DNA from: Branchiostoma floridae
Lineage: Eukaryota; Chordata; Leptocardii; Amphioxiformes; Branchiostomatidae
Reading direction: 5' to 3'
NCBI RefSeq assembly: GCF_000003815.2
Contig: NC_049982.1
Coordinates: 32,440,878-32,504,877, forward strand
DNA: 64,000 bases
Of the stretch, positions 234-63,122 are shown one piece after another. The number at the start of each line of letters is the position of its first letter. Position 1 is the stretch's first letter. A model generated the notes under the pieces. That model made no database searches. It had not been told where the DNA came from and worked only from the letters and a program-made list of their open reading frames with translations. The position numbers and the translations under genes were made by a program.

Positions 234-3200
234 ATGGCTTGTACCTACATTGCTACCCTTAATGTCAATGGCATGAGGGATAGGTATAAGAGAAAGAGTA
301 TTTTTCAGCTCCTTCGTAGGGAGAGCTTGAGTTTATATGTCTGCAAGAGACTCATGCGGCCTCTCTGCAGGACGTGAGTTTATGGGAAAGTGAGTGGGGA
401 GGCCCTGCAGCATTTAGTCTGGGGTCTGCCAGATCCAGGGGAGTTGCTATTTTAGTTTCCCCCAGGTCGAACTTTTCCATTCAAAGCAAACAATGTGATT
501 CGGAGGGCAGAGTTGTGTCTGTTACTCTAAGTGATGGGGTGTCTTTTTTTAGAGTGATTTGCATTTATGCACCAAATGTCAGCACCGAAAGGGAGAACTT
601 CTTTGATTCTTTGCCCCCCTTTCTGTCGGGTAGAGTCCCCACCTTTCTGTGTGGGGACTTCAATTGTGTCCACAATCCAAGGTTGGACAAGTGTGGGGGC
701 GATCCGCGTGTGGGAAGTCGAGGAGCAGCTCGGCTGGCATCGATTGTCTCTAACAATTGTCTTGTTGACTCATGGAGGGTCCAACACCCTCTGGATAAAC
801 TTTTTACGTGGAGGCAACGCAGCCCGTATGTAGCTTGCAGATTGGACCGGATATATTCTTCGGACACTCTAGCCATTACAGACTTTAAGGTGGTCCCCTG
901 CCCAGAGTCGGACCATGATTGCTTTGTAGTCAAATGGGTGGTTCCCTCTTTAGGTGTGGGTCAAAGGAATGTCCTTTGGAAGTGCAATACTTCTGTCTTA
1001 AAGGACAAAGATTTCCTAGCGCACTTCAAATGGCAATATGAGAGGTGGAAGACTCTGCAACCTGGCTTCCCGGACTTGCGATCCTGGTGGGACAACATCA
1101 AGGGCAGGATCGCAAAGTTTTGTTGTGTTTACGGGAAGCGTCTGGCGCAACAGCGCAATGGGGACTTGTTTTCCCTGCGGCAGGAGCTGGCAGATACCAG
1201 TAATATTTTAAATGCTGGCACTCATGACCCTGCCTCTTTAGATAATTATTATGCTCTCAAAGCTAAGATCGCTGCCCTTGAGGAACAGCAGTGTCACGGA
1301 GCCTACATTAGGTCTCGAATCCAGGTTTTGAGCGAGGGAGAAAAATGTTCCTCCTTTTTTCTCCGAAAGGAGAAAAAGAGAGGTCGTGAGAAAACTTTGG
1401 CGAGCGTTCTCAATAGCCAGGGTGTATTAGTTACCGATCAAGCTGAGATCTTGTCGGTTTACCAGCAATTCTATGATAGACTTTTCACGGCTGAAACTAT
1501 TGACCCGTCAGCAATGGATAAGTTGCTGTCTCACATAAGCAGAGTCTTGTCCCCCGACCAGACTGCTTTCTTAGATTCCCCCTTTACTAAAGGGGACTTC
1601 ATGGAGGCACTAAAGGGCATGACCAACAACAAGTGCCCTGGGTCGGATGGGTTGCCCAAGGAATTCTATGTCGCTACCTGGGGTATTCTCGGCGACGACT
1701 TGTGTCATGTCCTCCTAGAGGGTCTGAGAGAGGGGTCGTTGTGCCCTTCTCAAAATCTTTCTGTTCTCACCCTTTTGCAGAAGTCGGGCGACCCGTCTGA
1801 CCCAAAGAACAAGCGGCCCATCTCCCTTTTGAACACGGATTATAAAATCCTGTCGAAGGCCTTGACCAACCGTCTGAAGACAGTAATGGCCACTCTCATT
1901 CACCCCGACCAGACCTGTTCAGTCCCCGGTAGGTCTATACATAACAACCTTACCTTGTTGCGAGATATTACTACATATGTCAACGATAAGAACTTACAGT
2001 GTACTATATTGTCTGTAGACCAGGAGAAGGCATTTGACAGGGTGAACTTTCAATACTTGCAGGCAGTGATGTACAGGATGGGGTTTGGGTCAGCCTTCAG
2101 GGGCTATATTTCTACTCTGTACAATGGGGCGGCGGGCTCAGTGCTAGTAAATGGCCAGCTTTCCGAACGGTTCTATCCGTCACGGGGAGTCAGGCAGGGT
2201 TGTTCCCTGTCTCCGCTTCTCTACGTATTGTCTCTGGAACCATTTTCACAGATGATCAGAGACAACAGCAATATACATGGTCTCTGCCTCCCTGGTGGGT
2301 CAGAGGTTAAGCTGTCCCAATACGCTGATGACAACTCGGCAGTATTGGTAGATGATGCGTCTATCCAGAATTTTGTAGATGATGTTTCCACTTACGAAAG
2401 AGGCTCTGGAGCACGCTTAAATAAAGGAAAGACGAAAGGACTGTGGCTTGGACGTTGGAGGGGTCGGACAGACTCCCCTGTACCCGGCATTGTTTTTGTT
2501 TCGTCCTTTTTGATTTTATTGGGCGAGGTGATCGGTAACGTGGACATGGCTGGTGAGAGCTGGAAGAGAAGAGCAGCGGGGTTCTACGCCGTTCTTCAAG
2601 CATGGTACTCAGCCCGGCTTTCGTTTCGGGGCAGAGCAGTGGTGATCAATGCGCTGGCGGCGTCCAAGCTGTATTACACAGCGATGCTTTTCGATTTGCC
2701 TGGAAGTGTGCTGTCTGAACTCAATAAGGCCCTCTTCCACTTTCTCTGGAGAGGAAAAAGTGAAATGGTTGCCCGCAAGTCAGTCTGCTTACCTGTCGCA
2801 GAGGGTGGCTTGGGCGTCGTCGATATTTCTCTCAAATGTAAATGCATGTTCCTTAAGTTCTTCTCCGCTGTAGTAAACGAATCTCTGGAGCCGCCGTTCT
2901 CCCGCTTGCCGAAGTACTGGTTAGGGTTTTTGCTTCGGCGCTTAAATCCCGCCACCTGGTCAAACCTACAACCCCATGCTCCGTCGGCTCCTCTGCAGTA
3001 CTCACGCATGCAGGGGTATGTAGAACTCTTTTCCAGAAGGGTGCCAAACTTCTCTTGGCAATCCTTTACTGTCACAGGTTCTTACTTTTTGCTCCAGAAG
3101 TCTGAGAACTTCGTGCACACTGTGGTTTCAAATAACCCTGGCCTTCCGTGGCCAACAATCTGGAGGAACGTGGATGGCAAGCTGTCCGAGAATAACGCCA

Positions 3201-3718
3201 AGGATACTGCGTGGTGGGCTGCACACTCGGCCTTTAAGGTTAAGGCTGTGTTGTGCTTTAAGTGGGGTTACACCAGAGACCCGAACTGCCCACGTTCAAC
3301 CTGTAATGGCATTGAGACAGTTCCACATATGCTATGGTACTGTGGCTCTGCTCAGCATGTGTGGCTATGGCTTAGCGGGTTCATCGCCAAATGGTTTTCT
3401 GTACCAGGTTTCAGTTGTGACCGTCAGACTGCTTTGTGGGGCCTACTACCCCATCTTCCGATACCGCCAGCTAAGATGCGTATCATCGCTTTCTTGGTCT
3501 GTATAGTTCGCCATTTCGTATGGCGAACGAGGTGCGATGAGACCTTTGGAGATAAGACCTGGACAGACAACGAGATAGTTGTCGCCATTAAACAGGCTGT
3601 GAAGTCCCGTCTTCAAATAGAGCATCGCCGTTTTGGGGATGAACTTTTTCTAGACATGTGGGGGGTAGGGAATAGGTGGGTAGTCGTGAGAGATGGCAAT
3701 GTGATGTTTAGATTCTAG
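234..3718 (+). CDS. LINE ORF2: endonuclease-reverse transcriptase, one frameshift
   Basis: The likely start is ATG 234. The first ~30 codons carry the endonuclease opening (TLNVNGMRD). The frame then shifts between about 318 and 332, and the rest is open from 332 to the stop at 3716-3718 (1114 codons counted from 374). Numbering from base 374, the endonuclease shows GDFN at residues 94-97 and the SDHD catalytic motif at 179-182. The reverse transcriptase shows AFDRV at about 553-557 and the YADD active site at 650-653. A C-terminal C-x4-C-x7-H-x4-C zinc-knuckle follows near base 3290. Together they nick target DNA and copy the element RNA at the nick. Only the frameshift near the N-terminus argues against activity. 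It could be an assembly or sequencing error, since catalytic residues are kept. Confidence 0.9.
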
Positions 3719-16300: not shown

Positions 16301-19300
16301 AGTAATATAATAATAAGGCTCGAAATACTTTTTGTGGATACCTACACTGGTGCATGTAAAGTTGAAAATAACCTGCACCAGACAAACTACAACGGCTGTA
16401 CCACTCAGAATTTTGGAATCAGACTAGAGTCTGTTAAGAAACCATTGCCATGATTATTTCTCTTATAGTATACTTCTCAGGTGGTTAAAGTCCATGCAGC
16501 TTGTAAAAAGCCACACACACCTACATCATATTTAAACCCAGTACATGGACCAGTGCAGGTTAAGTGCAGGTAGACATCAGAAATACCTGCACAGCTCCAA
16601 TTTTACCTGCACCTGCATGTGCAGATGGTATTTCGAGCCCTGTATTAAAATTGAAATAATGCATTGGCATTAAATTAGCTTCGGCATGCAAAAAGTCATA
16701 AAATCAATTGCTTTTATATAAGTTTGATACAAGTTTGATACATGTAAGTATGAGGCTAAGTTTTATATATTGTTTTATATGTCACACTTGTTGCTTTGTG
16801 TCAAGTTACTTAGTTTTCAACCACACTCATTTATATACAGGTTACACTTGCGTGGCAAATGTCTGTAGTATTTTGGTTTAATAGGAAGTTAGGCAGCAGT
16901 TAGGTTAGACCAAGCAGGTTTTGAATAAACCTCCTTGGTTTCTGTAAATGCATTTAACTTCGCAAGGATTTACTTTCTTGGTTGCGGTAAAATGCAGTGG
17001 TTTTAAGTTTGCGGTAGTGCCATAGACTGCAGTCTCATGCTATAATGGAAAAATGTTCTCTGTGGTTTTAAGTTCTGGCTGGTGTAGTCACCGCAAAAAC
17101 CGTGAATATAAAACCACCACGAACATTTCTGCTTTTACAGTAGTGTATGGCCCTATGTGGGGAACTTCAGGTATCGAACATCACGTAAAAAAGCCCAATA
17201 CACTAGGGCTGGGTATCGGTACAGCACACCGGTACAAAACCGTTTTTCTTATTGGACCGGTCTAGAAAAAAACGGACCTGACAAAATTAGGTGGACCAGA
17301 TGTTGGACCGATTAGAAAATTAACAGATTATTTTATCAGGCATTCACATGCTTTGGCGCTTGCAGGTGGAAGAAAATAACAAGAGTGAAGTAGAGTAGAG
17401 TTTATAGTAATTTCTACCAAGTTTTACAGCCAATCGTACAGGTGCAGTTAGCATTGTAGGATTTTAAAACGCCAGTGTAAGTCTAATACTCCACCTAACA
17501 GATTTCTTTGTAGTGAAATGGACCATTGGTATGAGTCATACTGAATCAGGTCCAGGTTCAGGTACGGACCTGGACCTGATCCTCTAGACCTGAACCAGAC
17601 CTGGACCTGGATTTTTGGTACTGGTACCCACCCCTACAATACACCTATTGAGAATAGTAACACAAAACAGTGTGTCTGACTGAAAATGGCCTCACTGCCC
17701 TACCGGCTATTGAAAAAGGTCACCTCGAGGTTGTCTTACCTTACCTAACCCCCTGTAGGGGTCATTGACCTTGGAATCATCACCCCATACATAATCTTGT
17801 GTCATGCACAGCTTTTCCGAAAGTTGATGTCTATGAGTATAATGGGCTGTTAATTGTTTGTAATTTCTGAGCTTTTTTACCGGATCTTGATAGGCACTTC
17901 CTTTTTACCTCCATGAAAAATGGAGGTCTTGATTTTTGGTGTCTGCGTACTCTCCAAGCAGAGGTTAGGCTCCGACTGTTTTTTAACGTTTGTTTCAGTC
18001 GTTTTTATCGGGCTTTCTATTTTGTCATTTTTCTTTGAGTACGCCAGCCAGTTAGGTNNNNNNNNNNNNNNNNNNNNNNNNNNNNNNNNNNNNNNNNNNN
18101 NNNNNNNNNNNNNNNNNNNNNNNNNNNNNNNNNNNNNNNNNNNNNNNNNNNNNNNNNATATTTTGGACCTCTGGATGGATTGTAATGATATTTGGTTTGT
18201 GGATAGAGACTGGTTATGGTCACTTTTTCCCCCTGGTGTGACATTGGTATTGCAGGAGAACTTGCAAAACTTTATTATAAATGAAGCTAATTACAGCCTT
18301 ATTTGCATAAGCGATAAGACAAGATGAAACAACAAATCTACAAATGCTCGAAATATTCAAGGAGGTGTGAGATCCAGGGATCTCCCCAGAATTTTTTTAG
18401 TATAGTGGAGGAGCTGGCAAAAATAACCCGAACCAACACGCTGCACTTTCATATAGTGGAGAGCCTCCATTATTCCATCCTCTGGGGAGGACTCTGTGGT
18501 CTCTGAACTCGTTTGCTACAGTTAGGATTTAAGCAATATTTTAAATTATAACTTCCTCAATTTTAATTAGAACAATTTTGTTACGTTTTTAGAATGAATT
18601 TGATATTTGTTTGTTTTCAGTAGAATTGTTTCAACAAATAGAAGTGTAATGCTGAGTTTTAAAAGACCTCTACACATATAACCAGCTGTTTATTGGTTGT
18701 TGTTAATATTTTAACAATTGCAGTTTCACCTGAATTCAAATCTTGAATTTCTATATATATGTCCACCTTTAGAATTTTACTAATACCGCACCAAAGCTGA
18801 AAGAATTTTACAATTAGAAATATACTACTGTCAATGTTTTATTTTGCATGTAAATTTTTGATAGCATGCAAAATTTTTTGGCTGTGCAGAATTTTGATAA
18901 TACTGTTAATTTATGTAAGTAGTTACATTAAGTTACATGTATCATGTGGCATCTTACAGACTAGATATGCCAGGCTGTGCCCCCTCAAAAATCAAACATA
19001 CTGTAAATGCATTTAAGTTTGCTGGAATTTAAATTCGTATTAGTGGGAAAATGGAGAGTTTACAATGGTTTTTTAAAAGTTTCCAGTAGCATCATAGGTA
19101 GTCACATAATGTAATGGAAGAATGTTTGCAGTGGTTTTGAGTTGAAGATAAAGTGGCCACCCAAAAAACTGCGAACATAAAACTACGGAGAACAGTTATA
19201 CATTTGCAGTACTTGATATAGTGTGCTTGACGTATAATACCTTGAGTGTACACTATATGTTATATACACTATGCATTTTGGTCAAATGTCCCCGTGAAGC

Positions 19301-25300: not shown

Positions 25301-28300
25301 ATAGGGAAACGCTCTGTTTAAGACTTTTATAGTTTACACATGTTATGTCCACTAATACGTTCCTTATCTCAAACAGTTGTGGCCAACGTGCCACTGGTTT
25401 GATTTGGTTCTAGAAACTGTACAATATTGTTCTAATTGAGAATATGTATTAAGTTGTCTAGTCAAGTCCTTCGGAGTTTTATTTTTCTTTGCATTTTGAG
25501 TATTTTGACCCAAAAGTTTGTGGGTTGTCGTGCTAGCCAGGAATTAGGGACAATGACATAGCATTGACTATCTTAACTGTTGTAGTATGGGATGTGCCTC
25601 TTGTTGAGGTAAACCAAGAGGCTTTGTTATTTCATTTTTTTAATCTCATCTTAGTAAGAATCTATTCTGAGATGAAATAGCTGAAACAACCGACAAAGTC
25701 ATTTTGACATTGTCCTATTTTCTATAGATGTATATCATTTGATTCCTAATTTGCAAAAAAAAGAATATAGCAGCTCTAGTAATGAGACCAATTCCTCTTT
25801 CTCAATACCTTTGTAGGCTTTACTATCACTATATATGTTACTATACTTGTATTCAATCTTTGATTACAAATCGTTATCAACGAATTATGTAGTTTTCTTA
25901 GACTTGTCTTTAGAGCGATTCCTTTTAAAGCGCTCAATTTTTGCTATTTTCTGTTGTTTAAACTCCTATCATAGTATTTCTTGCTTCTATGTGTCGTGAC
26001 TTAACATGGCCTAAAACTGTTCTATTGGTCTTTCAAAATTGCAGAGGTTGAACCATTCGCCCCTATCGTATGAGGCGATACTGAGAACTCAGACAACCAC
26101 TGGCAACAAATAAAACGTGCATTGTGTTACCAGGCTACGTATGCCTTTTCATTCCTATTTTTATTATTTCATTCAACTTTCCAACTTTTCCATCAGCTGT
26201 GTCAGTTTGTAGTTGTTTAAATATTTCACAAGATGGGATCCTCCGAACTTTTGCAGGATGTGCATGGTTCAATGCTGTAGATACACCGTACCAATGCTAC
26301 CCTGTGTTGTTTTTGGTGTGTTAGTTATTACCTTTAGCAGTGTTATTGGTGAATTGTTTCATACCAACTTTCTGTTTCCACTATGTTCCTTTAAACTTTT
26401 CATTAAAAACTTTCAAAAGAACATTGTGGAACTTACCCCATCCAAAATACCGTTATGATTGATAGATTTATGAATATTTGTGTCTATTCTTATACACTTT
26501 ATTACAAGTGATAAGATTTTCGTATAGTTTCTTTGAGAGTAAACGTGTTGTCTAGATCGATAGCTGCACTACTCCTAGCGTGTTTTCTGTGGTAATTTTC
26601 CTATAAACCGTTGTATGTCCCTTGAGAAACGATCTCTTAGACCCAAGTGCACAGTTGCATGTTTAATTTCCTACCCATGTAAGTTGTAACCAGTTGCCAT
26701 GTGGTGTGTGAGAGAGACTTTTCCTTAGGTCAGTCAAGTTTTTTTTTAGACAATGGCTTGGAGTTAAGCTTTCGGCTGTGTGTTTGATAAATATCGGAAG
26801 CGTACAGGATGTGACCGTTGTTTTCTCCCGTTCCTGCACAGGGATGCCCGCGTGGTGCGTGACGCCCAGACGGCCAAGTCCAGGGGATATGGATTTGTTT
26901 CCTTTGTCAACAAAGTGGTACGTTTAGACAAACATTACCTCATGTACAGTACGACTGCAAATCTAACCTTTGCAACATCCAACCAAATCTGGATTACTGG
27001 TGTTTTTTGAAAGGCAGGGCATGGTATTTTTTTTTCAATTCTCCATGTTCATACCTTGATATGATGATATTGTTCATGATCTTTGTTATGTAAACAAAAT
27101 TGTTCGATGTTGGCACATCAGACATGTTGTTTGTTGATACTAGGGGTGAGTATCGGGACAGAAAATTCAGGTCCAGGTTCGGTTAAGGTCCAGAGGATCA
27201 GGTCTAGGACCGGATTTGAACCTGAACCTGATTGTCCGTAAAAACTTGTGAATGGGCGATACTCAAAACAATGGTTCATTTTGCTACAATAGAATCTGTT
27301 TGGTGTAGTAGCCAATTCCCACATGCTAACTGCTTCTATGTTTGACTAAAAACTATAAACTCTACTCTACTTTGTTGTTACTGTAATTCTTGATTTTATT
27401 GCGGTAACTTAATTTTAGCGTTTTTAGCGCCCGCTAGTCGAGCGCTAAATTTTCATTACGCGACTTTTTCATTACGCGAATTCACCACCGCCCCCCACCC
27501 TCTAATGTCGCGGCGCCGATTTCTGGTTTTGTTTATTATTTACTTAGTATATACGGTCACGATCTAACTCTTATCCTTTACAAAAACGTGCACACATTAC
27601 CCTAGTAATTCACACAGGAACAAGAAGTTCGTCGTTCTTCAAGAAATAAAACATATATTTAAATGGAAAGTTTGTCGTCATTTCTTTTACAAAATGCAGT
27701 GAAAGCATGCTGACGCAAACAACACAAATTCGTTACGAGCTGAGCTGCATATTTACCAATTGCGTATTTATCAATATTATTCTACGCTACGATTTAGAAG
27801 TTTGTCCATAAAATATACAAAACAGTTCCGAAGTTCACGTTGTGCTACGATGTTACACAAGACTTAGAAAATGTCCGCGTCATCTTAGCGTGCAGACAAC
27901 AACAGCAAAAATGAAAAAAAAAAAACAGAAAAAAAAACAAAGCCACTACGGAATATTTGGTGTAAATCTACGAATTTCTAGGCAGAAATACAGTCAAATT
28001 CATAGCGTCAAAGCCCAATATGTAAGGCGTGTTTTTTGTGAGCTACGAACAATTCGGAATTACAAGAATCCGCCGCCACCCAAGCGTACAAACAACAACA
28101 ATCAAGTTTCAAAATGGCGCCGACCGTGCGCCGCATGGATCTCACAAAATTATTTCTGCGGCGCCGCATCGAGGTCGACAACCTTCAAGTCTGGCGATGT
28201 TTTTCGTGTGTGAAAAGTTTGCGATCTTGTTCGTTCCATGGCGGGCGACTTCTTCCAGAAACGTCTTTTTGATCGAATGCGTGGCCGATTCGAGATTCGC

Positions 28301-31300
28301 TGACGTCCCTCACAAGTTTTCGCTACCAAATTTCGCAATCTTGGTCCTGCTTCCGGAGTATGGTGGTGGTTCCCGCTACGTTTTTTCTCGCTGTTCGCCG
28401 CCTGTATGGCTTTCTCGGCTTCCTTATTCACGACAGCAGTATCAAGTGGGCTGTTGTCGTCGTTGGGTCGGCTATGTCCGCCAAAATTTAGCGGGCCGCC
28501 GGCCGGCCAGAGTCGGCGGCCGTCAAGCGCGTTTTGAAATCACCGCGTCCGTAAGTTGTTTATTATTCAGAACCACACGCACCGCCGGCGTGTATGTTAT
28601 TTCTAGTCATGTATTTTTCGGACTTTAGGCATGTAAACTACCGAGGGTTTTGGTAATATTCATGCTATTTTTTCACACATCCGACTGAAAATTTAGCGCC
28701 TCCTTCACAACGCTAAAATTAAGTGACGCGAGTTACTCCATTTTCCCAAAAACGCTATAATTTCCAGACGCGAGAATTTCAAGAATTACAGTATTTTCTT
28801 GGGCCAGTAAGCCCAGAACATGACTGCCAATATAATGTGTTCATTTTCTAATCAGTCCAAAATCTGACTTATTTTTCTGGTCATTTTTTTGAAGAAAAAT
28901 GGTTTTGTACCGATCCCCATTGTTCTGTTCTGGTCCCCAGCTTTAGTTGATACTGCACTACTTGATCGTTCTTTTCAATCATCAACAGCAATTACACATA
29001 ATAAAAGTATGTATTTCAAAGTGTACAATCAACTTTGGTGGAGATCAGTTCTTTCTACAACTGCATAATAGATTCACCTTAAAGTTTTATATGCCATTGG
29101 ACCATGTGAAGCATTGATTAAGCTACCTTGTTTGTTACAGGATGCAGAAAATGCCATTGGGGCCATGAGTGGTAAGACATAGTTTTATATCATCCTGTCT
29201 TTTGTATTAAAAAAACAAAAAATACAGTAGATGGTATTGTGATAAAGTACAAACCACAGAGGCAAAAGTATTTTTGTATGAAAGTTATTGAATTGCAAAA
29301 CTCCAACATAAGAAAATACTGTAATCATGTTGTGTGTACTATTTTCATAGTGACCTCTTTGTGCGAAATCATTTCACGGTAAAAATTGCACATTTTCTGT
29401 CTTAAATACACCAGTGTACCCACTGTGAACTTAAAACAACCCAGATCTTAAGTTACTGTAGAATTAGTGTTTGTAAATTTCTGAACTACATGTAATGTAA
29501 CAAGTCTAGTAGATATGATTTGTTGTATTTCAGCTTCGGCGAATCATTTCATGCATACTATTTTTACTTGAGCTAAGGAATCATTGCTGTTTTGTCTCCA
29601 GGTCAGTGGTTGGGTGGCCGAGCCATCCGAACCAACTGGGCAACCCGTAAGCCCCCACCTCCAAAGTCAAACGAAGGTACAACTGGACGTATGTTACATT
29701 AATGCTTATTATTTCTACCATATACAAGGGTGATAGTTATTATTTAAGTTTGCATGTAAGCTTATTATTAAGACTTCACGTTGGCTTTAAGGCTATGTGG
29801 TGGGATGTAAGGCAATGCATGTCTCTTTTTATAATTACATATTAATAATTGCACTTAATTCTACCTCATATGATAAATTTGTCAGATTTCATTACATTTA
29901 TCACTTTTAATGACATAGGGTAAGCTAGCTGCCATGCTAGGTAGAAACGCATGGTCAGACATTGTTAATGGCACCTCATATGAGGATGAACTGAACTGAA
30001 CTGAACTGTAAGCAGCAGGAATAGGAAAGGCGTAGTAAGCTCCTTTTCCCTAAACTTTAAAAATTTTCTAAAATAGGAATTATTTGCCCTTTTAACTTGT
30101 GTGGTTCTCAGTAAAAATAGTTTATAGAACATCATTCACTTAGCTTGTGGAGTCCACCTTTAGCCAAGCAGTCCGTTTATTACTTCTATACAGTAATTTC
30201 ACCACATTTAGCAGGGCTCAAAATACTTTTTTCTGCATACCTGCACTTGTGCGGGTAACATTGATAATTACCTGCACCAGACAAATTTTACCTGCACCGC
30301 TCTGAACTTAGAAAGTATGGATCATACTAAAATTGGGGACCATTGCTACCGGTATTTTTTCTTTTATACTTCTTAGGTGGTAACAGTCAATAACAGCTAA
30401 TAACAATCCATATACACCTACATCGTAGGAGTCTTTTATGTATAAAACCCAGTACATGGCCCAGTGCAGGTTAGGTGCAGGTAGACACCAGAAGCACCTG
30501 CACAGCTCCAATTTTACCTGCACTAACCTGCATATGCAGGTGGTATTTCGAGCCCTGTTTAGTAGTTACTGCAGATGACAGAAGTATTTTGACAGTAGCA
30601 GGTGCTGAGTGTTCGACCTTCCGTTGCACAGGTCAGAAGCAGTTGTCCTACGATGAGGTATTGTGCCAGGCTAGTCCGACAAACACCACCGTGTACTGTG
30701 GGGGCATCACAAAAGGGCTGACAGGTGAGTCCCAGGTGTTCCTTGAACAGCTGAAACACTACATAAAGATTAGGACTTAGGACTGTACACCTATACCTGT
30801 AAAAATGTCAACTTGTTAAGTTAAGGTCATCAGTGTCGGTAGCTATCAACTTTTCCCAACATTTTCCACTACAACTGTTTTCCTTCTTCAGAATCATCTA
30901 TACCATTGTTGTTGTACCTGGCAGTTTTTCTAAGTACACAACCCTACAAAAAGTGTGACTTCCAAAAATGCCAGTCACAACTACTGAATGCCACCTGCTG
31001 CGCAATGCTTATTGCCTGGTCTAAAATGTCATACATGTATTGTTTTCCTTGCAGAGGATTTGATGCGCAACACATTTTCTAACTTTGGACCTATCCAAGA
31101 GATCAGGGTATTCCCAGAGAAAGGCTACAGCTTCATCAGGTTAGTGTTGTGTGGTTTTATGCCCATCTACAGAAGGACACTGAAACTATCCATTGCTGTA
31201 TTTTTTTTTGGGGGGGGGGGGGGTACCCCAACTGAAAGTGGGGTAGGTCATGCACTTGTCCGAACAGCACTTTCACTTGCCCTGGACAATAGGGCTAGTG

Positions 31301-33819
31301 GACTTGTCAAACCCTGAGAACTCTCCGCTGAGGGAGTTCTTTACTTCACCTCAGGACAGTTTCAGTTTGTACAGTCTTCGTCGGGAAGCATCTAGAAGTA
31401 AAACCAAGAGACATGAACTGTCATTTGCGCCCTGTTCTCTAAGATTATTGTACCACAATGCTAGTTAATCAGTAAAGATGGTTAATTCTATTATGTCTAG
31501 ATTTTAATTCGATTGCCGTCGAATTTTAAAAGTTGTGTTTATGCATTTAACTCAATTGTATCACTGACAAGCGATTCTGTGACTGATGGCGCATTTCATG
31601 TGTATTTTGTTTCTCATACTGAATATCACATGCCAAGTGAATCAAAAATAAATCTCTGAATCTGAAAAGAACATCAGTCAACTCTTGGACTTCTGTGACA
31701 TTTTTCACCCAGGTTCTTCTCCCATGAAGTGGCAGCCATGGCCATTGTTACAGTAAATGGAACACAGATAGAGGGACAAGCAGTCAAGTGCTCATGGGGC
31801 AAAGAGTCCAGCGACCCTATGAACCAGTACCAACAGGTAAAATCTAGAATCTCAACTACTCAGTGTAGTGTACCATATTGTCTCAATGGACCATTTTCAC
31901 ATACCCCAGTGCCTGCTGGGAAAAGAAAGGCACTTTGGGTAGCACGGAGGGCGGTACACTTTCTAGTGTGCCTAGTCTTGGATGTTATGTCCCCTGTGCT
32001 ACCCATAATGCCTCACATCTTCCAGCATGCAGTGGAAATTGTGAAAGGGTGTATTTTTTTTTTTAACCTTTATTTAACCTTGATACATCATTCGGCCTGA
32101 GCCGTTTTTCAAGATTTCAAGGGTGAGTGAGTTGTCCTCAGACGTTGTGTGTATGTAAAAAAAAGTGCTAAACAAGTTGTCACACCTAACCTTTAAGGTT
32201 TTGCATATCTCTGTATCTGTATCTATATAGCTGGTATAACCACCCTTCAATGTAACACACCAGCTACATGCAAACATTTGGCAGTATCTGGTTATATTAC
32301 AGCATCATGTTATGAATGTAAAACACTACTTCAGGTTTGAGACAGATACAAATTGACAAAATAAAAAACAAGAGTGGGACCAAACGACATACCAAACTAC
32401 ATGTGAATGCGGCAAAGGAATCATGAAATACCGTTGCGAACGAGGTTAACTACAATACTCCATCATGAGGTAACCCTCCAGCTTGGAGTTAAAAAAGGGC
32501 ATCTTGCAAATGTTCTGAAATGGATGATTCCCTTTTTACAGCAGGGATATGGAGGAGGCTGGGGTGGAAGTTATGGTAACATGTACGGTAACTACCAGGG
32601 TGCCTACTGGCAGTATCCTCAACAACAGTACATGATGGGAGGAGGAGGAGGGCAGCAAGGCTGGGCTGCTGGAAACTATCACCAGGTCAGGAAAACACTC
32701 AACACTGATCATTTACTGCGTATAATTGTAAAATTTGAGGTAATTTTTTAAAGGACAAGTTGTGAACGGTTTCAGGAATGGCTCATTCTGTATTGTATGA
32801 TTGTTATTCATTATTTGATCTCTTGACACTCTTGACTTGATCTGATTCTAACTCTGGAGCTGTGAAATATTTGACATGGCAGGATGCAATCTTTGTTGTG
32901 ATAACTTTACCACAAAGGAATGAGAATATATAGTTTTTAGCTTATGATTTCTGCAGTGCAGTTTCTATATGACCTGCCAGAGGGTGCTAGCTGTCTGAAA
33001 TCTGCCACATTGCTTGCTTGTATGCTGTACTCTACTGTGCCAGACACACGGCTAAAAGCTTATTTTTCAAACGAAATAGAGTAACCCAGACCCATACCTG
33101 TAATTTCCAAAATACCATCATTTCCCACGAGAAAGGCTTCTTACACTGATTTTAAGAAGCCAAGATGAATGACAGAAAAATGCACCCTCCGTACAAGCCT
33201 CTAATTGTGACTAGTGGTGCGTACCTAAAGCCTGGACTTGTAATTGGACCTAAAAATGTTTAGGTCCAAGTCCAGAAAAAAAACCTAAATGTCCGGGGCC
33301 AAGTCCGGACTTGCAAAAAGCAATCTGTCACTTATATTCCCTTTTTTGTTCTAAACCATCTAAAACCTTCCATAGACAGTAAAATTTGCACTGGAAAAAG
33401 ACAAAAAAACATTTTGTACTTACCCTGGCTATATAATTTGCATGTATTTTTCACATTGCATTTCACTTCATGATAACACGAAATTTATATGCACGATATG
33501 CACACCTCCCCTTCCAAAAAAAATTTTCTAGTGCACATAATATGCAATGATGGGTTCAGGTTCAGGTCAGTTCAGCTGAACCTTAACTGCTGGACCTGAA
33601 TCTGGACCTGAACATGAGTTTAGGTACGCAGCACTAATTGTGACCATTCCCTTACAGGGATGGAACCAGGGCTACAGTATGAGTGGCCAGATGGGCAACT
33701 GGATGGGGGGCGGACAGCAGCAGGGCTACGGGAACAGCCAGATGGGACAGCAACAGCCAGGCAACGGGATGATGCCCAGCCAGGGATACATGCAGCCCCA
33801 ACAGTACCAAACTCAGTAG
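13354..33819 (+). CDS. TIA1: TIA1/TIAL1-type RNA-binding protein, 13 coding exons, complete
   Basis: Exons: 13354-13382, 13529-13625, 13795-13893, 22655-22709, 23765-23852, 26842-26917, 29141-29171, 29602-29676, 30632-30724, 31055-31139, 31713-31836, 32542-32685, 33658-33819. All borders are GT-AG and phases agree, giving 1158 bp or 385 residues plus TAG, the usual length of vertebrate TIA1/TIAR. Three RRMs are visible: RRM1 (~8-83, LYVGNL and DPYCFVEF), RRM2 (~96-174, VFVGDL and SRGYGFVSF), RRM3 (~205-278, VYCGGI and KGYSFIRF). The last two exons encode a Q/G/Y/M-rich low-complexity tail (~285-385) ending YQTQ. The family binds U-rich RNA, promotes recognition of weak donor sites, represses translation and nucleates stress granules. 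One gene appears to stand for both vertebrate paralogues. Symbol choice between TIA1 and TIAL1 is arbitrary; PRTL near the start is closer to TIAL1. Confidence 0.95.
15197..15545. mobile_element. MITE-like element with ends GAAAAATGTTGTGTTTCC
   Basis: The left end (15197-15220) and the reverse complement of the right end (15521-15545) share GAAAAA(A)TGTTGTGTTTCCTGTTTC. The interior carries GGGTCGGCAGGTTTTTCTAGGG. Related fragments occur at about 44994-45066 (GGGTCGGCAGG, GGTAACAGGAAACATAACATTTTCTT) and about 21470-21545. No clean target-site duplication was found, so the superfamily is open. Confidence 0.65.
16314..16642. mobile_element. CAGGGCTCGAAATA-ended MITE, copy 1
   Basis: Starts TAAGGCTCGAAATAC (first bases mutated) and ends TATTTCGAGCCCTG-like. 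The interior is rich in CCTGCACC/GGTGCAGG words. Flanks are AT-rich (AATAA left, TATTA right), so the duplication is not clean. It lies in TIA1-like intron 3. Confidence 0.8.
16940..17142. mobile_element. CTGTAAATGCA-ended TA MITE, copy 1
   Basis: Ends are CTGTAAATGCATTTAA at left and CTTTTACAG-TA at right. The interior has the family's TTCGCGGT/ACCGCGAA words in decayed form (AACTTCGCAAGG, ACCACCACGAAC). Confidence 0.75.
17204..17636. mobile_element. hAT-type MITE with 8-bp duplication CAATACAC
   Basis: Starts TAGGGCTGGGTATCGGTAC and ends GGTACCCACCCCTA, so the termini are inverted repeats. CAATACAC lies at 17196-17203 and again at 17637-17644, a perfect 8-bp target-site duplication. The interior has ATTGGACCGGTC and GGTCCAGGTTCAGG words shared with the copies at 27141, 33212 and 59295. 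At 433 bp it has no coding capacity. Confidence 0.92.
18058..18157. other. Assembly gap (100 N)
   Basis: Exactly 100 N inside TIA1-like intron 3, the conventional length for a gap of unknown size. It falls in a repeat beginning near 17905 with ACCTCCATGAAAAATGGAGGT and continuing after the gap with GGACCTCTGGATGGATTG. Missing sequence is probably repeat. Confidence 0.95.
18999..19211. mobile_element. CTGTAAATGCA-ended TA MITE, copy 2
   Basis: Flanked by TA at 18999-19000 and 19210-19211. Ends are CTGTAAATGCATTTAAG and CATTTGCAG. The interior CGCG words have mostly decayed to TG/CA, as expected of an old methylated copy. Confidence 0.78.
20986..21274. mobile_element. CAGGGCTCGAAATA-ended MITE, copy 2, duplication TCTAT
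   Basis: CAGGGCTCGAAATAC at the left mirrors TATTTCGAGCCCTG at the right. TCTAT occurs directly on both sides (20981-20985 and 21275-21279). The interior holds GGTGCAGG words. Confidence 0.9.
24045..24133 (+). ncRNA. Candidate microRNA-like hairpin in TIA1-like intron 5
   Basis: A 34-nt left arm (24045-24078, starting GTGGTGGCCAGCTACATG) pairs with 24100-24133 around a 21-nt loop. By hand pairing there is one mismatch and several G:U pairs; the G:U pairs form only if the + strand (same sense as the host gene) is transcribed. Length fits a microRNA precursor. It may equally be a fossil inverted repeat; no family is assigned. Confidence 0.35.
27141..28945. mobile_element. hAT-type MITE with duplication GTTGATAC, split by another element
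   Basis: Starts TAGGGGTGAGTATCGG and ends TTGTACCGATCCCC...AGCTTTA. GTTGATAC flanks it at 27133-27140 and 28946-28953 (perfect 8 bp). Left part 27141-27378 and right part 28794-28945 match the short family copies. The 1.4 kb between them is a separate insertion. Confidence 0.85.
27379..28793. mobile_element. 1.4-kb CpG-rich element nested in the hAT-type MITE
   Basis: Flanked by TA on both sides, with ends CTGTAATTCTTGA and TCAAGAATTACAG. Similarity of the two ends continues imperfectly for about 75 bp (TTAATTTTAGCGTTTTT-like words). The central part, about 28040-28560, is far richer in CpG and GC than the surrounding introns. It contains AAAATGGCGCCGACC and several short open frames on both strands, including a lysine/arginine-rich one on the minus strand (about 28150-28431). 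No transposase motif was recognised. It may be non-autonomous, carrying captured host sequence. Confidence 0.7.
29985..30009. repeat. Short (TGAAC)n tract
   Basis: About four units of CTGAA in TIA1-like intron 8. It follows GCACCTCATATGAGGATGAA and looks like the tail of a degraded retroelement, but no body is recognisable. Confidence 0.45.
30212..30557. mobile_element. CAGGGCTCGAAATA-ended MITE, copy 3, duplication TTTAG
   Basis: Starts CAGGGCTCAAAATAC, ends TATTTCGAGCCCTG. TTTAG lies directly on both sides (30207-30211 and 30558-30562). Its right end is 74 bp ahead of the exon starting at 30632. Confidence 0.9.
31201..31223. repeat. T9-G14 homopolymer pair
   Basis: Nine T followed by fourteen G, then TACCCC, 62 bp after the exon ending at 31139. 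A G14 run can form a G-quadruplex and is also a common sequencing error site. Confidence 0.8.
31885..32050. mobile_element. Diverged inverted-repeat element next to TIA1-like exon 11
   Basis: CATTTTCACATACCCC...GGCACTTTGGGTAGCAC at the left mirrors GTGCTACCCATAATGCC...AATTGTGAAAG at the right. It starts about 50 bp after the exon ending at 31836. The duplication is not clear, so the class is open. Confidence 0.6.
32350..32470. repeat. Dispersed copy of the 4.6-5.4 kb tandem unit
   Basis: ACATACCAAACTACATGTGAATGCGGCAAAGGAATCATG...CGTTGCGAACG follows the same order as ACCTGCCAAACCACAAACGAATGCGACAACGGGAACATG...GATGCGAACGCG in the array. It lies in TIA1-like intron 11. Confidence 0.65.
32538..32544 (+). 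promoter_or_regulatory. NAGNAG tandem acceptor of TIA1-like exon 12
   Basis: The acceptor reads ACAGCAG|GGA. Use of the first AG includes a CAG codon (Q) at the start of the exon and use of the second omits it. Both keep frame. The choice adds or removes one glutamine at the entry to the low-complexity tail. Confidence 0.75.
33212..33636. mobile_element. hAT-type MITE with duplication ATTGTGAC at the last TIA1-like acceptor
   Basis: Ends TAGTGGTGCGTACCTAAA and TTTAGGTACGCAGCACTA are inverted repeats. ATTGTGAC lies at 33204-33211 and 33637-33644 (perfect). The interior shares GGTCCAAGTCC-type words with the other copies but the ends form a distinct subfamily. The right end is 21 nt upstream of the AG at 33656-33657. 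Confidence 0.92.
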
Positions 33820-36300
33820 CACTCAAGTCAACAACAACAACAACAACATCTTATGTTATGTTAGCATGAAAGTTCATCTGTTTTGGGTAGTTATTATAGT
33901 ACACAGCTAAAACTTTGATCTAAAAAAAAGTAACGCATTGAATTTTGGACTACTGCAGTCTTCCTCAGAATGCAATCATCTAGATCATTTGATATGAGCA
34001 ATTGGTCTATTGGCAAAATGAATTTCCAGGCACGTGTGACCAATTGCTGATGTCTCATGTTCGTATGTTCATGTTATTTTTGGACACTACAATTCTGGGG
34101 AGGGCTTCAGTCAGATGGTCTAAAATCTGATGTTGTATATTTGCACTGGAACAGAGTTTTAGCTGTGTACTGTATATATAACAACATCTTAAATGTACAC
34201 CTCAGCAGATCTCTCTCCTAAACTAAGCCCCCAACGGTTCATCCATCTTAGCTCCTTCAAATTAGTCCACCTTTAATGCTACTGTTTAGGCCATTTCATT
34301 GAGTTTCATTGTGCGTTTTTATCAGTAAATAATGATCATAAATCAGCAGGATTATGAACAATAAGGAAGATGTACAGATACATTATGATGACTATGTTGT
34401 ACTTTTTCAACAAAAACTTTGGAAGACTGATCGGTCCCATTCTTGTAGATAATGTCTGTGTTTTCAATCTGATCTGATCATTTTGGCTGACTTACTTGAT
34501 GGTACTTTAATTTGTTCTTGAGGCCTCAACTTGATTCAGATTTTATTAGTAGTTACATGTATCCCAAGCACTTTTGTCATCAAGAAGTTTTGCTTTGCTA
34601 ATGTGGAATAGTAACCATGGGTTCGAGCTGGTGTTAAGGCTTTGCTGCAGTATTGGTATTAAGTATCAGTAGTGGTGAGATGCCACTAGCTGATAACTGA
34701 TGGTAAAGTGCATGAGTGCCACAGGATAACTTGAAGATGATTTCATGTAACTGATTCACTCCTGATGGACATCTGACAATTATTTCAGCCGTGACACACA
34801 CACGGCAGAAATAATAGCCTCCGTAGAATTTGAATATTCAAGTGTAAGATAAAGTGTCCGAGTCTGTTCCACCCTTCGCCCCCCTTGTGTCCACGGAAGA
34901 GAACCATTTATTTAGAACAGACATTGTTAACCCAGCGGCTGCCGAGTTATTTTGACCTGTTGAACAGACGTCGTAGAAGCCAACCAGGGTGTCCTAAGTC
35001 GAGATAGCTCTCGTCTAAAAAAGCTTTTTTCACAACACAAAAGACTTGAGTGTGTATTTGTGTGTAGGCTGGGTTTTGCAAGACCATTTGCTGCACCACG
35101 TGTGGACAATGACTAAAACGTTTTGCTGTACAAAATTTTTGGAACTCCGCGGTTTCTCAAACTAAAGCTAGGAGGTCCCGTGTGTGCAAGTTTCTTTTGC
35201 CTTTCAATATTTTCACTTTTGTCATGTCACGATCATGAATGTTGTGAAAACACGTTTGATATACAACATTGATAAAAAAACATCTTATGTACAGTAATTT
35301 AAAAACCTGATAAAAACACTACAAGTAAGACTGATGAGACTGTAGTTTAAAAGTTAGATGACTGAGCTGTGTTTTCTCAGCAAGTTGTTGACATAACCCA
35401 AGAAAAAGACAACAAAATGTATATGATACTACAGAAGTTGTGGTGTCCTTGCGTGAGTCCTAATGCCGAAAACTGTTGATGTGACAGAAAACTTGCATGA
35501 TGAGTCATTTACTACATGTTCTGTCATCAGGGACACCCAAAAACTTCTTAACGTTGAGAGAGAAAACTCTTGGCTGTTCTACCCTTCCTAAGATGCCTGT
35601 TTGCAATGAGTTGGTAGGTTTTCATTCTTCAGACAAGTATATGTGACCCTAATTGCCAAACAGGAGAGCCTACCTTAACTTGCTCCCGTAATTCGTTTGG
35701 TTTTTTTTTTAAGAAGTTCATCAGCCAGTCTATGATTCCAATACGTGCTCACGACAAGTTTTCTTAAGTCATACATCTTGCTTGTACAGGCTTTACAGAA
35801 GTGTATGCTTGCTAAAAGAGGAGACATCCAGACAGGCCTTATAAAAAAAAAGATCTTTGGTACTTATAGAACATTTTGAAGCTGATTTTTATCCAAAGTT
35901 TCCCTTATATACATGAAGAGAAAATTGTAGGCATCAAATCCGACTGGAAGATATGTTGATGTGGTCAATGAGGCAAATGTAAAACTGTAGTGAGTAATTT
36001 ATATACTGTTAAGACGTGATCCTATTTTAGTATGAATGAAGTAAGTAGTAGACAACTTATAGTCAAGCTGTTAGTAGGTAGAGGTTAACAATAGTGATGG
36101 ATGTGGGTGTACAAAGGTATTCCTTCCTTTTATTATGATACACAATAAAGTATAGAGGGGTAAGAAGTAGATGGAACTGTTCCTGATTTAGTTCTGTGGG
36201 TTGGTTGGTGTAGTTGCTTGATTAGACGATAATCAGTCCGTGTGTAAACCAAGTAACATGGGGAGCGGCTGGTTTTGTAGGCGGGAAAAGAAGAAATAAA
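33820..36300 (+). other. Probable 3' UTR of the TIA1-like gene
   Basis: About 2.4 kb follow the stop with no recognised transposon, unlike the introns. This fits a retained transcribed region. AATAAA occurs at 36144-36149 and 36295-36300, either of which could be the polyadenylation signal. Stretches of T and ATTTA-like words are present. The exact end is unknown. Confidence 0.5.
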
Positions 36301-37734: not shown

Positions 37735-38150
37735 GGCAACCATTTTTTCTTGTTGGACCAGTCTGAAAAAAAATGGAGCTGAAAGCAATGAGCGGACTGG
37801 ATTTCAGGCCGAATGGAAAATAATCAGATTATATTGGCAGGGGTTTACATGTTTTGTAGCTTAACAGTCCAATAAAATAATAGGAATGAAGCTAAGGGTA
37901 GAGTTTATAGTCATGTCTGCCAAATTCCTACAGTCAAACTTACAGAGTTTACATGAAGACAGGATTTTTACATTTCAGTGGGACTTGGACACGCTGCCAA
38001 AAACTGTAGAAAACTGTTTTGAGTGTTGCCCATTCACAAGTTTCAATAATAAGGTCCAGGTTCCGGGCAGACTGGGCCCTGAATGCCCCTGATCCTCTGG
38101 ACTTGAACTGGATCTGAATTTTCTATCTGCATGGGTACCAACCCCTAGTT
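37735..38150. mobile_element. hAT-type MITE, decayed copy
   Basis: TTCTTGTTGGACCAGTCTG, GAGTTTATAGTCATGTCTGCC, CCCATTCACAAGTTT and GGGTACCAACCCCTAG match the family in order, but the left terminus is not recognisable. Confidence 0.75.
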
Positions 38151-40210: not shown

Positions 40211-53377
<13,167 letters not shown>

Positions 53378-56331: not shown

Positions 56332-59300
56332 CTATCGTCTGATCTGAGCTTGAAGTGTCTCCAGATTTGTCTCCAGGGCAGCCTTGTTGCTCCTCAAACC
56401 TGTGAAGATGTCTTCCACCTCCTTCTTCAGACCCTTTGTTTCTTCCTCCACAGCTAGGAGATGAGTGTCCACTGCTATGTCCATGTCCTGGGGTGAAAAA
56501 CCATACAAAAATAAGGCAAGATTCTGTAACTGTCTATTATGCATGTTCAGTTTGTTAGAATCGACTATGTTTTGTTAATCATTGTTTTATTCACCTTCTG
56601 CATACAAAACCTAAGTTATGGCTTCCAACATTTTTATTTGACCTCTGATCTCCAACCTTCCCTCTGAGTTACCTCAGTTGATTTTGTTAGTTTTCTGTTT
56701 ACTCATTGTATAAGATTTGTTGCTTATGTTTTGTATTTATTGCTCGTGTATTGTAGGACTCCAGGAAGAATAGTGATACTACATTTAGTATCACTAATGG
56801 AGATCCAAATAAAACAAACAAACAAACAAACAGGTGTTTATCCGAAGGGAGTGTAGTCTGTGGCATGTCTGTGTGTGCCTCTGCAATTCTCGATGTGACA
56901 TATGTAAGGATATGAATATTTCAATCAAGTGGATATGTAAATATTTCAATCTTTAGCTAAAGCCTAGATATTTCAAAGTTGGTTGGTGGAAGTGTTGCGA
57001 AGCACTGTAGGTAAGGGGTTGAAGTCTGCCATCTCTTGATTACCTTGTTGCTGCAAGTTTCCCTTGATGTAAGAATTGTTTAGTTTTCTTGGCTACTTTG
57101 GTCTACCATTCAGTTCATCCTTGGAGAGGTGACACCAGTGACACATGTTCCTGTCCAGCATGATTGAACGGAGCTCTACCATTATCTACTTAAAATTCCC
57201 CATCAAATGTATTCACTCTTCACAGTCTATAAAATATAAGATACCATATTTAACGTTATTTACCTCTGCAAGAAGGTTATGGTTTAGGTTTTGGCCCAAC
57301 AGCAGCTGCAAATGAGGACCTTATTCACAAATCAAAGGGAAACCTTCGCAGCTTACATACAATATACTGTAAATGCAGAAATGTTCGCGGTGGATTAATG
57401 TTCGCGGTTTTCGCGGTGACCACTTCACCGCGAACTTAAAACCACCGCGAACATTTTTCCATTATGGTATTAGACTGCAGTCAATGGTGTTACCGCGAAC
57501 TTAAATCAACTGCGAAAAGTCCCTTTACGCACTACTGCGAAATTAAATCCCCGCGAAATTAAATGCATTTACAGTATCAGATGTAAAGGTTAACATTACT
57601 TAGCAGAGGTATGATGTTTCAGAACTCAAGATATTGCATGTGGCTTTTTTTTCTTAAAAGATTTAATTCTTAGTCCATACCTCGACGGACACATGACTCT
57701 GGAGTGTCTTCTGGTAGTGCGCAACCATCTGCCGCATGATGTCACTTACGTCAACTTTGTCTGCTTGAAATACATTACCCTCCCTGCACAAAACAAACAA
57801 ACATACAGAATGTGGGCAGTTTGTTAAACATCCAATAATTACAGAAGTTGGAATTAAATCTAGCTTTAATGAATGGAATGGCTCCAGACAATATAGGCTG
57901 AATACAAATGCCTGACTTAGTTAGCTTACAAAACTTATTTCATATTTCATGAGTGCTAAGAAAAAATCGTCTTGTTACGTGTTCTTTGGTGTCTTACAAG
58001 CAATCGGCCGTCTTGGTGTGCTTAGCGCTTCCTCATTTATTTTGAAAATATGCACGATAATGGAAAAGTCTATATGTATAGAGAATGCATGGGCAGGGTC
58101 TGCATGGGTGTAGTGAGTGTCATATGGTTTGTAAAACATACATTGTGTAATTCACCACAAATAGAATTCCATTGCTAAAAGGTTGACTGATCATGTATTC
58201 ATTGATGCATTATCTATTGGGAAATTTGGACACACCTACCCAAAGTAGCTTGACCATGCCTTCTTGGCCTTCTCTGCTTTACGTTTGTTGCACTGAAGAG
58301 ACAGAAAAGGGACAAGTAAACCAAACATTTTAAGTCAGTTTTTTTATACCAATAGACTCAACGGTCAACAACCTTTGTGTCACACTTAATAGTTTGATGT
58401 GTCTTTGCATTTGAAACAAATGTAGTGACACAGTGAAAAACAAAATATTTTTGTTGTGGGATGAGTTTGTAGTGTCACTGTAAAAGAACCTTAAGAAATT
58501 TGCAGCCATTCCCTTAGACTGCAAACATCTACGTACATTTGCTCAGTTGGAAGTAAAGAAATGAATACTGATGATGTAATAATTACCCAACGTCTGCAGA
58601 TGGTGGCATTACATGTGCAGGTCACTCGGGAACAAGTTTTTTTGCACCTCAACACTATGGGCTTTATACCCAGCCATACGAAATGGAGGATGTTGAATGG
58701 AACTGGAAGGTCTCTAATGTCCTGGTACTCAAGGATAAATCTGGCTCTGGCGTGTGTCCGTTGTAGTAGAGTTTTTTCCTGCAAGAGAAGTAAGTGTGAA
58801 TGAAAAGGGTAAATTGAAACCAAATTAAGACACCTGCAATGATTTGTATTTATTTGCTGGAACAGTTTGGTCATTTTGGTCATGTTTGCTGGAGCAGCCA
58901 GCAAAAAACATGTCTTTGGCAGTTCTTAGCTCTGATTGGTTCATGACAGAAGAAGAATATGCCAGCAAAAACAATATGTTTCCCCTTTGGGGGAAATATA
59001 ATAAGTTATTAACTGCTGTGAACACATTGACTGTTTGGGGCATGCCCTCAATTCTTTCGCAAGACTCCTATGATTGGAGTCTTGAGAATTTTGTACAATG
59101 AAGATTAAAGTACCAAACTACATAGGAAAAGATAGAAAGGCACCTTTGTGTAGCCTGTTAACCATACCATCAGGAGCTTTCCGCTATCTCTACTGTGCTG
59201 CGAGTGTAGGCAGATCATAAGCAGAAGCTGGGGTAATTTTGACGGGTTTGGGTAAGGGTCACTCCTAAGCCAACCAGCAGAGAATGGTGACCAGTAGGGC

Positions 59301-62300
59301 TGGGTACTGGTACAAAACCGTTTTGTCTTATTGGACCGGTCCGGAAAAACCGGACCTGAAAAAATTTGGTGTACCAGATGTTGGACCTATTGGAAAATTA
59401 ATAGATTATATGATCGGGGCATTCACGCGTTTTGGGGCTTACCGGTCGAAGAAAATAACAAGAGCGAAGTAGCATTGAGTCTATAGTCGTTTCTACAAAG
59501 GTTTACAGCTAACCGTACACACTCAGTTAGCCTTGTAGGGTTTAAAACGCCAGTTGGAGTCGAATACTCCACAAACAAATTTCTTCCTAGTAAAATGGAC
59601 CATTCTTTTTAATTTTGTCCATTCACAAGTTTTCACATACTGAATCAGGTCCAGGTCTGGACCTGGACCTGAACCGGACATGGACCTAAAGTTTCTGTAC
59701 CGGTACCCAGCCCTAGTGACCAGGTTACCTTTTGAGTCGTTGTGACACTGGACACCAGACGGACAATCAACAGACTGACCACCACCAGGTTGGTCAGTAG
59801 GAACACGGCCAGGAGAACCTTGCAGAGGATGTGAGTCGGCAGGTAACTACTCAGGAAAATGTTGTGTCGCTGGAGACCAAACACAGCCCACTGCAGGTTC
59901 AGGAACATAGCACTGATTCTAAGCAAAAATGAGAACACTGGAGTGAGACAAGTAGGTGATGAGGAAAAAACAATCTCTGGTCACTTCAGATGCTGGAAAT
60001 ATGAAACAATGATGCAAATGTGCTGAAGTATGCCCTATAGATTTGCTGCATTGTTTGTTGCTAGAAGATTATGAGTTCTGCTGGCAAAATGTTGCATTTG
60101 AGCACCTTTAAAGCTCTGCTCATAAGTTACCAGTAGCTCATGCTTTCACTGACACTGATAGACATGTGCATGGGAGACTTACCCTGTAAACTCATCAGTG
60201 CTTGTTGAATTGTTGGTCCAAAGTGCATTCAGACTGGTCAGGTTCCCACCTCCTGCACCAGTGTTGTACACTTTGGTCATCCCACTGGCAAAGGCCACAG
60301 AAACGAAAACTGAAATGTACAATTATACCACAGGTTATGTAATGTTATTTCTCCTTTATCTGTGGGGCAACCTACATCAGTTGTTTTTAAAAACAGGGTA
60401 TCCTAGGATATCAAGTCGATGGATGGTGGTTTCAATTTGCAATATTTTCCAAATGTTACAATTGAAACCACTGTCTGTTTACTTGATATCCCAAAATGCT
60501 CCATTTTTTAAAACAATGGATATAGGTTACCCTGCAGATAAAGGTGATCTGGCGTTACCCAAGGTATCATAAAAATTTTATTTCCTCGGTCATACGAACT
60601 GTACCAATTTCTTATAAGCAATGTTAGTACTCCTAAAAATACTTTTTGTTCCTTCAGCTATAATCAAAGCTATAACAGACATTAGAGACACATTTATGTG
60701 TGTGGCTTTGTTATTCAGCACCAAGGACAGGAGACATACTGGAGGTTTTCTTTTGTGAAGAAAAAGAATTTTTTATATATGCAAAATATTCTTCATAAGC
60801 AAACCTTCTAGCTTCTGTTCAGTAACCAAAATTGACATCATCAGCAGTAAAAGGAAGCCCTGTTACTTTAACTCTCATAAGGTCACAGCAAGTAAATTTT
60901 ATGGATTACATCAGCGCGCGCATTAATTTTCGCCTGATTTCAGAAAAAAAACAATAATTTTTTCTTCTGCAGGGATGGTCAACATGACGATTAAGTACCA
61001 AAATGAGCAAATATATTGTGTTGCAGCCTAATAATTGTAGTTGCAGAAGTGACACTTGCAAGGTTCCCAGGACTGTAGTAGTAGAAATGAAACTTATTGA
61101 ATTTGTTGGTGATGCCAGTCTACCACACTAGTTTCACTTCTACCACACCAGTACATGTCTTAAATACAGGAATGAATGCCTTGTTGGCTCTGATACCATT
61201 TTTTGTCCCTTTAATTCTTTTTACAAGTCATCACAACTTTATGGTGCCTATTTTTGAAAATCTAGCCATGTTGTTTTTTGGGCCCTATCGCACTATTTTT
61301 GCAGTCTGCAGAGGATGTCATCCATAAAATTTACTTGCTGTGGCCTAATTCCACTGGATGCCATAATACCACCACATGAGAAAAATAGTTATAGTGATTT
61401 AAAGAGATGTAACAATGTAGCATCAGTAATCCTGAGGTTTAAACACTTCTGATATTTAGGTGCTAAAGACAATCTTAAGAAGGCCTCTACAACACCTTTT
61501 TTTATGTGGTGGTATTATGAGAGTTCACGTTATGACTTTGTTATTCAGCACTAAGGACAGCAGCTGTACTGGAGGTTTTCTTTTGTGAAGGAAAAGTATT
61601 TTTGTTCATGTATGCAAAACATTCTTCATCAGTAGGCCACATCATTGCTATTCAGTAACCAAAACTGACATTTTTAATTGTTAGTTTCCAATGGAAGGAA
61701 ATTTGCAGGCCTGTAAACGCACTGCTAGGCCTGGCCCTTAGCTTAGGTTTGGTTCGGAATCTGTTTGCATGGAACAAAGACTGAACAAAGTACTAAGGAG
61801 CAGTTGTTGTAACTGATGACATTTCTCAGTCTTCCTAGTCTCTATTGGACTTGGTGAGCTGGACTAGTTACCACCTGCAATTCTTGTCTTCAAGGGAAGC
61901 TCATACCCTGCCAAAGACAATCATGTATCTTTCTGCTGTGCTACCGTGATGTCACAGAAGCAGTGGATTGTACATTCCTTGACAAAGACTGAAAATTTGG
62001 GTATGTCCAATTTTTGGGTGTTGGAAATTACAGTTCAACTTTTACCCAGAATGACTTCTACCAAGTTGAACACAGATGAACTTTAAAGTTAAATACATGT
62101 CTATCTGTTTTTCAAATCAAGGGTGAGATCTGGTAGAGACTATAATGCCTTCCCAACAAAAGAACACAATTTTAGAATAACATGCATACCAAGGAAACAA
62201 AACAATGTTTTGACCTACCATACACAGATATCAGGTACCCAACATCCTTCGCAACTGTCCACAGGGAATATTCCAGTGGCCCAAACGTGGCAGTGACATC

Positions 62301-63097: not shown

Positions 63098-63122
63098 CTA
63101 GAAGATGTAACATACATTCGCT

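Follow-up and report, generated by a model that had tools for sequence, protein, structure and literature searches.

Introner elements and Ds elements are spliced as introns, with the element ends and target duplications providing the splice signals. The locus described here lies within a 64,000-nucleotide stretch of the Branchiostoma floridae genome (contig NC_049982.1, positions 32,440,878 to 32,504,877; hereafter the window). It comprises a hAT-type miniature inverted-repeat transposable element (MITE) inserted in the last intron of a gene for the splicing regulator TIA1. Whereas introners and spliced Ds elements make a new intron, this MITE provides a candidate branch-point motif only, inside an existing intron. 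The Merle short interspersed nuclear element of the dog PMEL gene is likewise a mobile element situated, together with its target duplication, at the 3′ end of an intron whose original acceptor is kept. According to the part of PMC7349775 cited here, it lengthens the distance between branch point and acceptor and alters splicing, whereas the predicted distance in TIA1 is 20 nt both before and after the insertion. In its 8-bp duplications, short inverted repeats starting with TAGTG, non-coding nature and many similar copies the TIA1 element is like other hAT-type MITEs, and no difference from them was found in the features compared (duplication, ends, coding and copies).

We consider it probable that an old MITE was inserted at a branch-point motif of the last TIA1 intron and that the adenosine at position 33637 (A33637) took over as branch point. 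The dinucleotide AT would have closed the old heptamer CTCTAAT and at the same time opened the 8-bp target; the duplication would have put AT on both sides of the element, and the fixed CACTA end of the MITE family would have supplied the remainder on the acceptor side. Because the resulting heptamer, CACTAAT, would have taken over 20 nt ahead of the AG and the short pyrimidine tract would have stayed as it was, the insertion would have been nearly neutral for splicing. The presence of the element, its exact duplication, the motif and its position, and the ends of the family are confirmed (Table 1); the use of A33637, the ancestral sequence and the neutrality of the insertion we infer from the sequence features described below.

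Table 1. Positions, within the window, of the last TIA1 intron, of the MITE and its junctions, and of three other elements
Feature	Position	Strand	Remarks
Last TIA1 intron	32686..33657	+	GT-AG, 972 nt; 539 nt minus element and one duplication
Old candidate branch-point heptamer CTCTAAT	33199..33205	+	Intact; A33204 now 453 nt from acceptor G
Left copy of 8-bp target-site duplication ATTGTGAC	33204..33211	+	Exact
hAT-type MITE, non-coding	33212..33636	.	425 bp; stop-free for at most 69 codons
Left terminal inverted repeat TAGTGGTGCGTACCTAAA	33212..33229	+	TAGTG start in 38/39 sister copies
Right terminal inverted repeat, plus-strand end GCAGCACTA	33619..33636	-	CACTA end in 37/39 sister copies
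AG in element end, bounding the AG-exclusion zone	33630..33631	+	C>G at 33631 vs majority of sister copies
Candidate branch-point heptamer CACTAAT	33632..33638	+	CACTA from element, AT from duplication; candidate branch point A33637
Right copy of 8-bp target-site duplication ATTGTGAC	33637..33644	+	Exact
AG of last TIA1 acceptor	33656..33657	+	
Last coding exon of TIA1, up to stop codon	33658..33819	+	Homology weak alone (E 0.36); single open frame across 12 exons
Element	17204-17636		Duplication CAATACAC, exact 8 bp
Element, within another TIA1 intron	27141-28945		1805 bp; duplication GTTGATAC, exact 8 bp
Element	59295-59715		Duplication GTGACCAG, exact 8 bp

The initial annotation had placed the right end of the element at 33636, 21 nt ahead of an acceptor G with its AG at 33656-33657, and direct reading of the sequence gives the same coordinates. 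Its assignment of the element to the hAT-type MITEs also holds, in view of the 8-bp duplications (ATTGTGAC in the TIA1 copy), the many genomic copies of this short, non-coding element, and terminal inverted repeats of the YARNG kind (TAGTG/CACTA), YARNG being the consensus start of hAT terminal inverted repeats. The two repeats are 18 nt each and differ by one mismatch (94% complementary). The left junction reads AGCCTCTAATTGTGAC followed by TAGT, and the right junction GCAGCACTA followed by ATTGTGACCATTCCCTTACAG and then G. When the window was scanned for exact 8-mer duplications combined with 14-nt inverted repeats (up to three mismatches, 120-2500 bp apart), five pairs were obtained; two of these extend into an N stretch, and three are elements, including the TIA1-intron MITE. 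An 11-bp duplication, CTAATTGTGAC, suggested by a CTA that also precedes the left copy, was rejected because 33 genome copies with exact duplications show 8 bp and CACTA ends, and also because two other elements of the window have 8-bp duplications and CCCTA ends. The third other element of the window (27141-28945) has an 8-bp duplication too, but its end is TTTA. Three matches of the terminal-repeat pattern to viral contigs were dismissed as chance; they represent one and the same conserved stretch, which has 19 exact bases in common with the left end of the MITE and nothing longer.

A search of the B. floridae genome (513,431,437 bases in 431 contigs) with the MITE yielded 426 first-look candidates, of which 40 were scored. 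All 40, the TIA1 copy among them, are long matches, and two fall slightly below full length. The 39 further copies were retrieved with their flanks; the 40 are the best matches to the TIA1 copy and not a random sample. Exact 8-bp duplications flank 33 of the 39 sister copies, or 34 if up to one mismatch is allowed. Two copies whose matches stop short and were assigned wrong ends (L019 and L040), as well as three with no recognisable duplication (L015, L035 and L045), are counted as misses. Because the sister copies share TAGTG/CACTA ends (Table 1) and 8-bp duplications, the boundaries of the TIA1 copy are fixed and CTA is part of the element. When both strands are pooled, the 33 exact duplications lean to S-T-Y-A-T-R-A-S, which recalls the nTnnnnAn target of Ac-type hAT elements. 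Ends of the family type, as a partner hAT transposase would share, are TAGTGGTGCGTACC. The placement of the TIA1 MITE within a large family of its own genome is new.

The identity of the gene and of its last acceptor, as given in the initial annotation, is upheld by a model of 12 exons put together from homology and splice sites. Its frame is open from RRM1 as far as the stop codon that closes the last exon at 33819, and the product has three RRM_1 stretches (E 1.7e-59) as well as a Q-rich tail; its best solved-structure matches are TIA-1 (2mjn and 5o2v). The two final exons have low-complexity sequence and give weak matches to human TIA1, with E values of 0.091 and 0.36. Since this homology is weak alone, their placement rests on frame, order and splice sites. 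The preceding exon has a NAGNAG tandem acceptor, TACAGCAG (32537-32544), through which one glutamine could be gained or lost.

By the AG-exclusion rule, as worded in the cited part of PMC1431707, a branch point is expected in the interval that separates the acceptor from the nearest AG ahead of it, with a margin of about 15 nt on the upstream side. For the last TIA1 acceptor this zone is CACTAATTGTGACCATTCCCTTACAG, starting after the AG at 33630-33631. The heptamer CACTAAT conforms to nnyTrAy, the branch-point consensus given in the cited part of PMC8531310, which is mammalian and not from amphioxus. A33637 is located 20 nt ahead of the acceptor G, within a range of about 15-45 nt and with no AG between, so that the element end and the duplication do spell CACTAAT at branch-point distance, as had been proposed. 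It is the only full nnyTrAy in the zone, also when 15 nt are added upstream. Pairing to the U2 hexamer GUAGUA was calculated as -2.7 kcal/mol for the present CACTAAT vs -0.9 kcal/mol for the old CTCTAAT. A33637 as the candidate branch point is thus the best prediction for this intron.

The CTCTAAT that the initial annotation noted in the left flank is indeed read at 33199-33205. The accompanying claim, that the uninterrupted ancestor probably had CTCTAAT at the same place, agrees with the computed join of the flanks, which gives a zone of CCTCTAATTGTGACCATTCCCTTACAG with a CTCTAAT candidate at the same 20 nt (an empty site would be expected to read CTCTAATTGTGACC); however, no such sequence was seen in the assembly. 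The term “restored”, used there for the motif, overstates the case, as the old motif was never lost.

The CACTAAT match at the last TIA1 acceptor is above chance, but not extraordinary. Among 3760 scored plus-strand AGs (AGs preceded by N within 100 nt, and the first 120 nt, being excluded), CTAAY was found 15-45 nt away inside the AG-exclusion zone in 71 cases and YTRAY in 405. Insertions were also simulated by placing the MITE at 25 positions ahead of each of the 12 TIA1 acceptors (n = 300). YTRAY was formed across the right junction in 25 of these, with an equal count in either orientation, and some YTRAY was present in the zone afterwards in 42. Given the CACTA end of the family, a duplication starting with AY builds CACTAAY at the junction; real duplications start with AY in 3/39 sister copies, and in 7/66 over both strands of the exact duplications. 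The case had been described as rare, but the simulated junctions and the sister copies show it to be uncommon and not rare. The presence of CTA in the three bases ahead of the duplication as well has a window background of about 1.3%, a figure for matching the old CTA that holds unless selection removed other insertions. Chance and selection are indistinguishable from one case. None of the paper titles and abstract openings in the open-licence literature that were searched for branch points built from transposon ends reports one. The cited part of PMC5802833 contains no reference to hAT.

The TIA1 copy is probably old. From the majority sequence it differs by 8.3%, more than any of the other 39 (2.1-6.5%), 17 of its 35 substitutions are private, and its end branch in the tree measures 0.07 vs a median of 0.022; such divergence and such an end branch are as expected if the copy had been carried for long. 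The family itself moved recently, since its copies include an identical pair and others with hardly any differences. The C>G substitution at 33631, which creates the AG at 33630-33631, is common to the TIA1 copy and L012 only. These two are partners in the midpoint-rooted tree with a branch support of 91/88, below the firm mark, whereas the nearest sister by plain pairwise difference is L020 (8.2%) and not L012 (9.1%); the pairing rests on the shared changes and on this branch. If it is right, the substitution would predate the insertion.

Several observations weigh against insertion at the old motif followed by the use of A33637. An empty site, for which the initial annotation recommended a comparison with other individuals and related species, was looked for within the same assembly. 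There the only full-length match of the downstream flank (33645-34200) is the flank itself; three further matches cover 45-95 bases, and neither an empty second haplotype nor a paralogue was seen. The divergence of the TIA1 copy may be inflated, as a gappy alignment around 33495-33515 may add false differences and the majority sequence, made without this copy, is weighted to younger ones. The terminal repeats pair in four of nine folded stretches (mean pairing probability 0.54-0.97), which would bury CACTA, and opening of the heptamer costs 1.1, 7.5, 0.7, 1.4 and 0.8 kcal/mol in five stretches. The corresponding costs in three stretches of the joined flanks are 4.1, 4.4 and 1.9 kcal/mol. In its favour, A33637 itself is unpaired at a probability of at least 0.98 in all nine stretches. 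YTRAY is present in the zone at one of the 12 TIA1 acceptors, the last one (3/12 with 15 nt more), and the looser TNA at 9/12 (12/12 with 15 nt more). Because 11 of the 12 acceptors are without YTRAY in the zone, a good motif may not have been needed. The same counts speak for a reading that we regard as somewhat unlikely, in which CACTAAT is a chance match and branching occurs at a weaker adenosine elsewhere, the insertion having been tolerated since the pyrimidine tract and AG are intact. TNA occurs at 40, 35 and 20 nt from the last acceptor, and alternative sites would include one immediately upstream of the AG at 33630 and A33643 within TTGTGAC, the latter rather near the acceptor at 14 nt. 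However, of the adenosines in 33600-33649 A33637 alone has y3, T4, r5 and y7 of nnyTrAy (4/4), the zone has a single 3/4 match, at 14 nt from the AG, and, judging by the joined flanks, the last acceptor had such a motif before the insertion, as the sole one of the 12.

Continued use of the old A33204 is very improbable. A terminal-repeat hairpin would have to hide the AGs of the element (18 other AGs lie between A33204 and the acceptor) and bring A33204 near the acceptor. The intact old motif speaks for this reading, as does the folding of the element plus its duplications, which is far stronger than in 100 shuffles (z -7.9); the stem also reaches a mean pairing probability of 0.97 in three of the nine stretches, one of which is the intron plus one base. 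However, strong folding is expected of palindromic MITEs, and two sister elements likewise pair their ends. Over the nine stretches the stem values are 0.97, 0.97, 0.21, 0.01, 0.00, 0.21, 0.07, 0.54 and 0.97, i.e. 0.00-0.21 in five. Because they depend so strongly on the stretch folded, no claim can rest on the stem, and masking or shortening by a hairpin was set aside as the leading explanation and kept as a rival only. In yeast, “downstream stems” were found in 21 of 88 introns and proposed to bring the branch point near the acceptor (cited part of PMC12350175), but yeast and animal 3′ ends differ, and in TIA1 a better motif is present at a normal distance. Little probability attaches to a further reading, overlapping with the others, in which the insertion harms or regulates splicing, whichever adenosine is used, through partial retention of the last intron and a differently ended TIA1. 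Were the intron retained, a short tail would be added ahead of an in-frame stop; the repeats bury CACTA in some folds, and the element at the intron-exon boundary of dog PMEL is described as altering splicing (cited part of PMC7349775). On the other hand, U2 pairing of CACTAAT is no weaker than that of the old motif, and the TIA1 copy looks old.

The three other elements of the window have related ends and exact 8-bp duplications (Table 1). Those at 17204-17636 and 59295-59715 are MITEs of a sister family with TAGGGSTGGGTAC-type ends and are 77% alike; fragments of this family lie near 37744-38147 and 52618-52731. The outer parts of the 27141-28945 element are similar, in inverted orientation, to the 430-bp sisters; three open stretches within it gave no Pfam match at E 0.05. 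An open frame of 1132 codons (320-3718) resembles, by eye, the endonuclease and reverse transcriptase of a long interspersed nuclear element. On the minus strand, a 321-codon open stretch (62172-63137) resembles, by eye, a TRP-type channel, with no Pfam match at E 0.05.

The branch-point case says nothing special about TIA1; it is an instructive single case and not a new kind of thing. A broader reading, which we hold to be rather unlikely, is that the MITE family, of which there may be hundreds of copies, carries half a branch point from place to place. Inserted in either orientation, it would make CACTAAY from its fixed CACTA ends and a duplication starting with AY, and native branch points of many introns of this genome may have been replaced in this way, TIA1 being one survivor in which old and new motif coincide. 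If A33637 is used, the last TIA1 intron would offer a clean natural test of a transposon landing on a branch point with splicing left whole, the signal coming in part from the element end and in part from the target duplication. It would then represent one way in which DNA transposons exchange, and not only break, splice signals.

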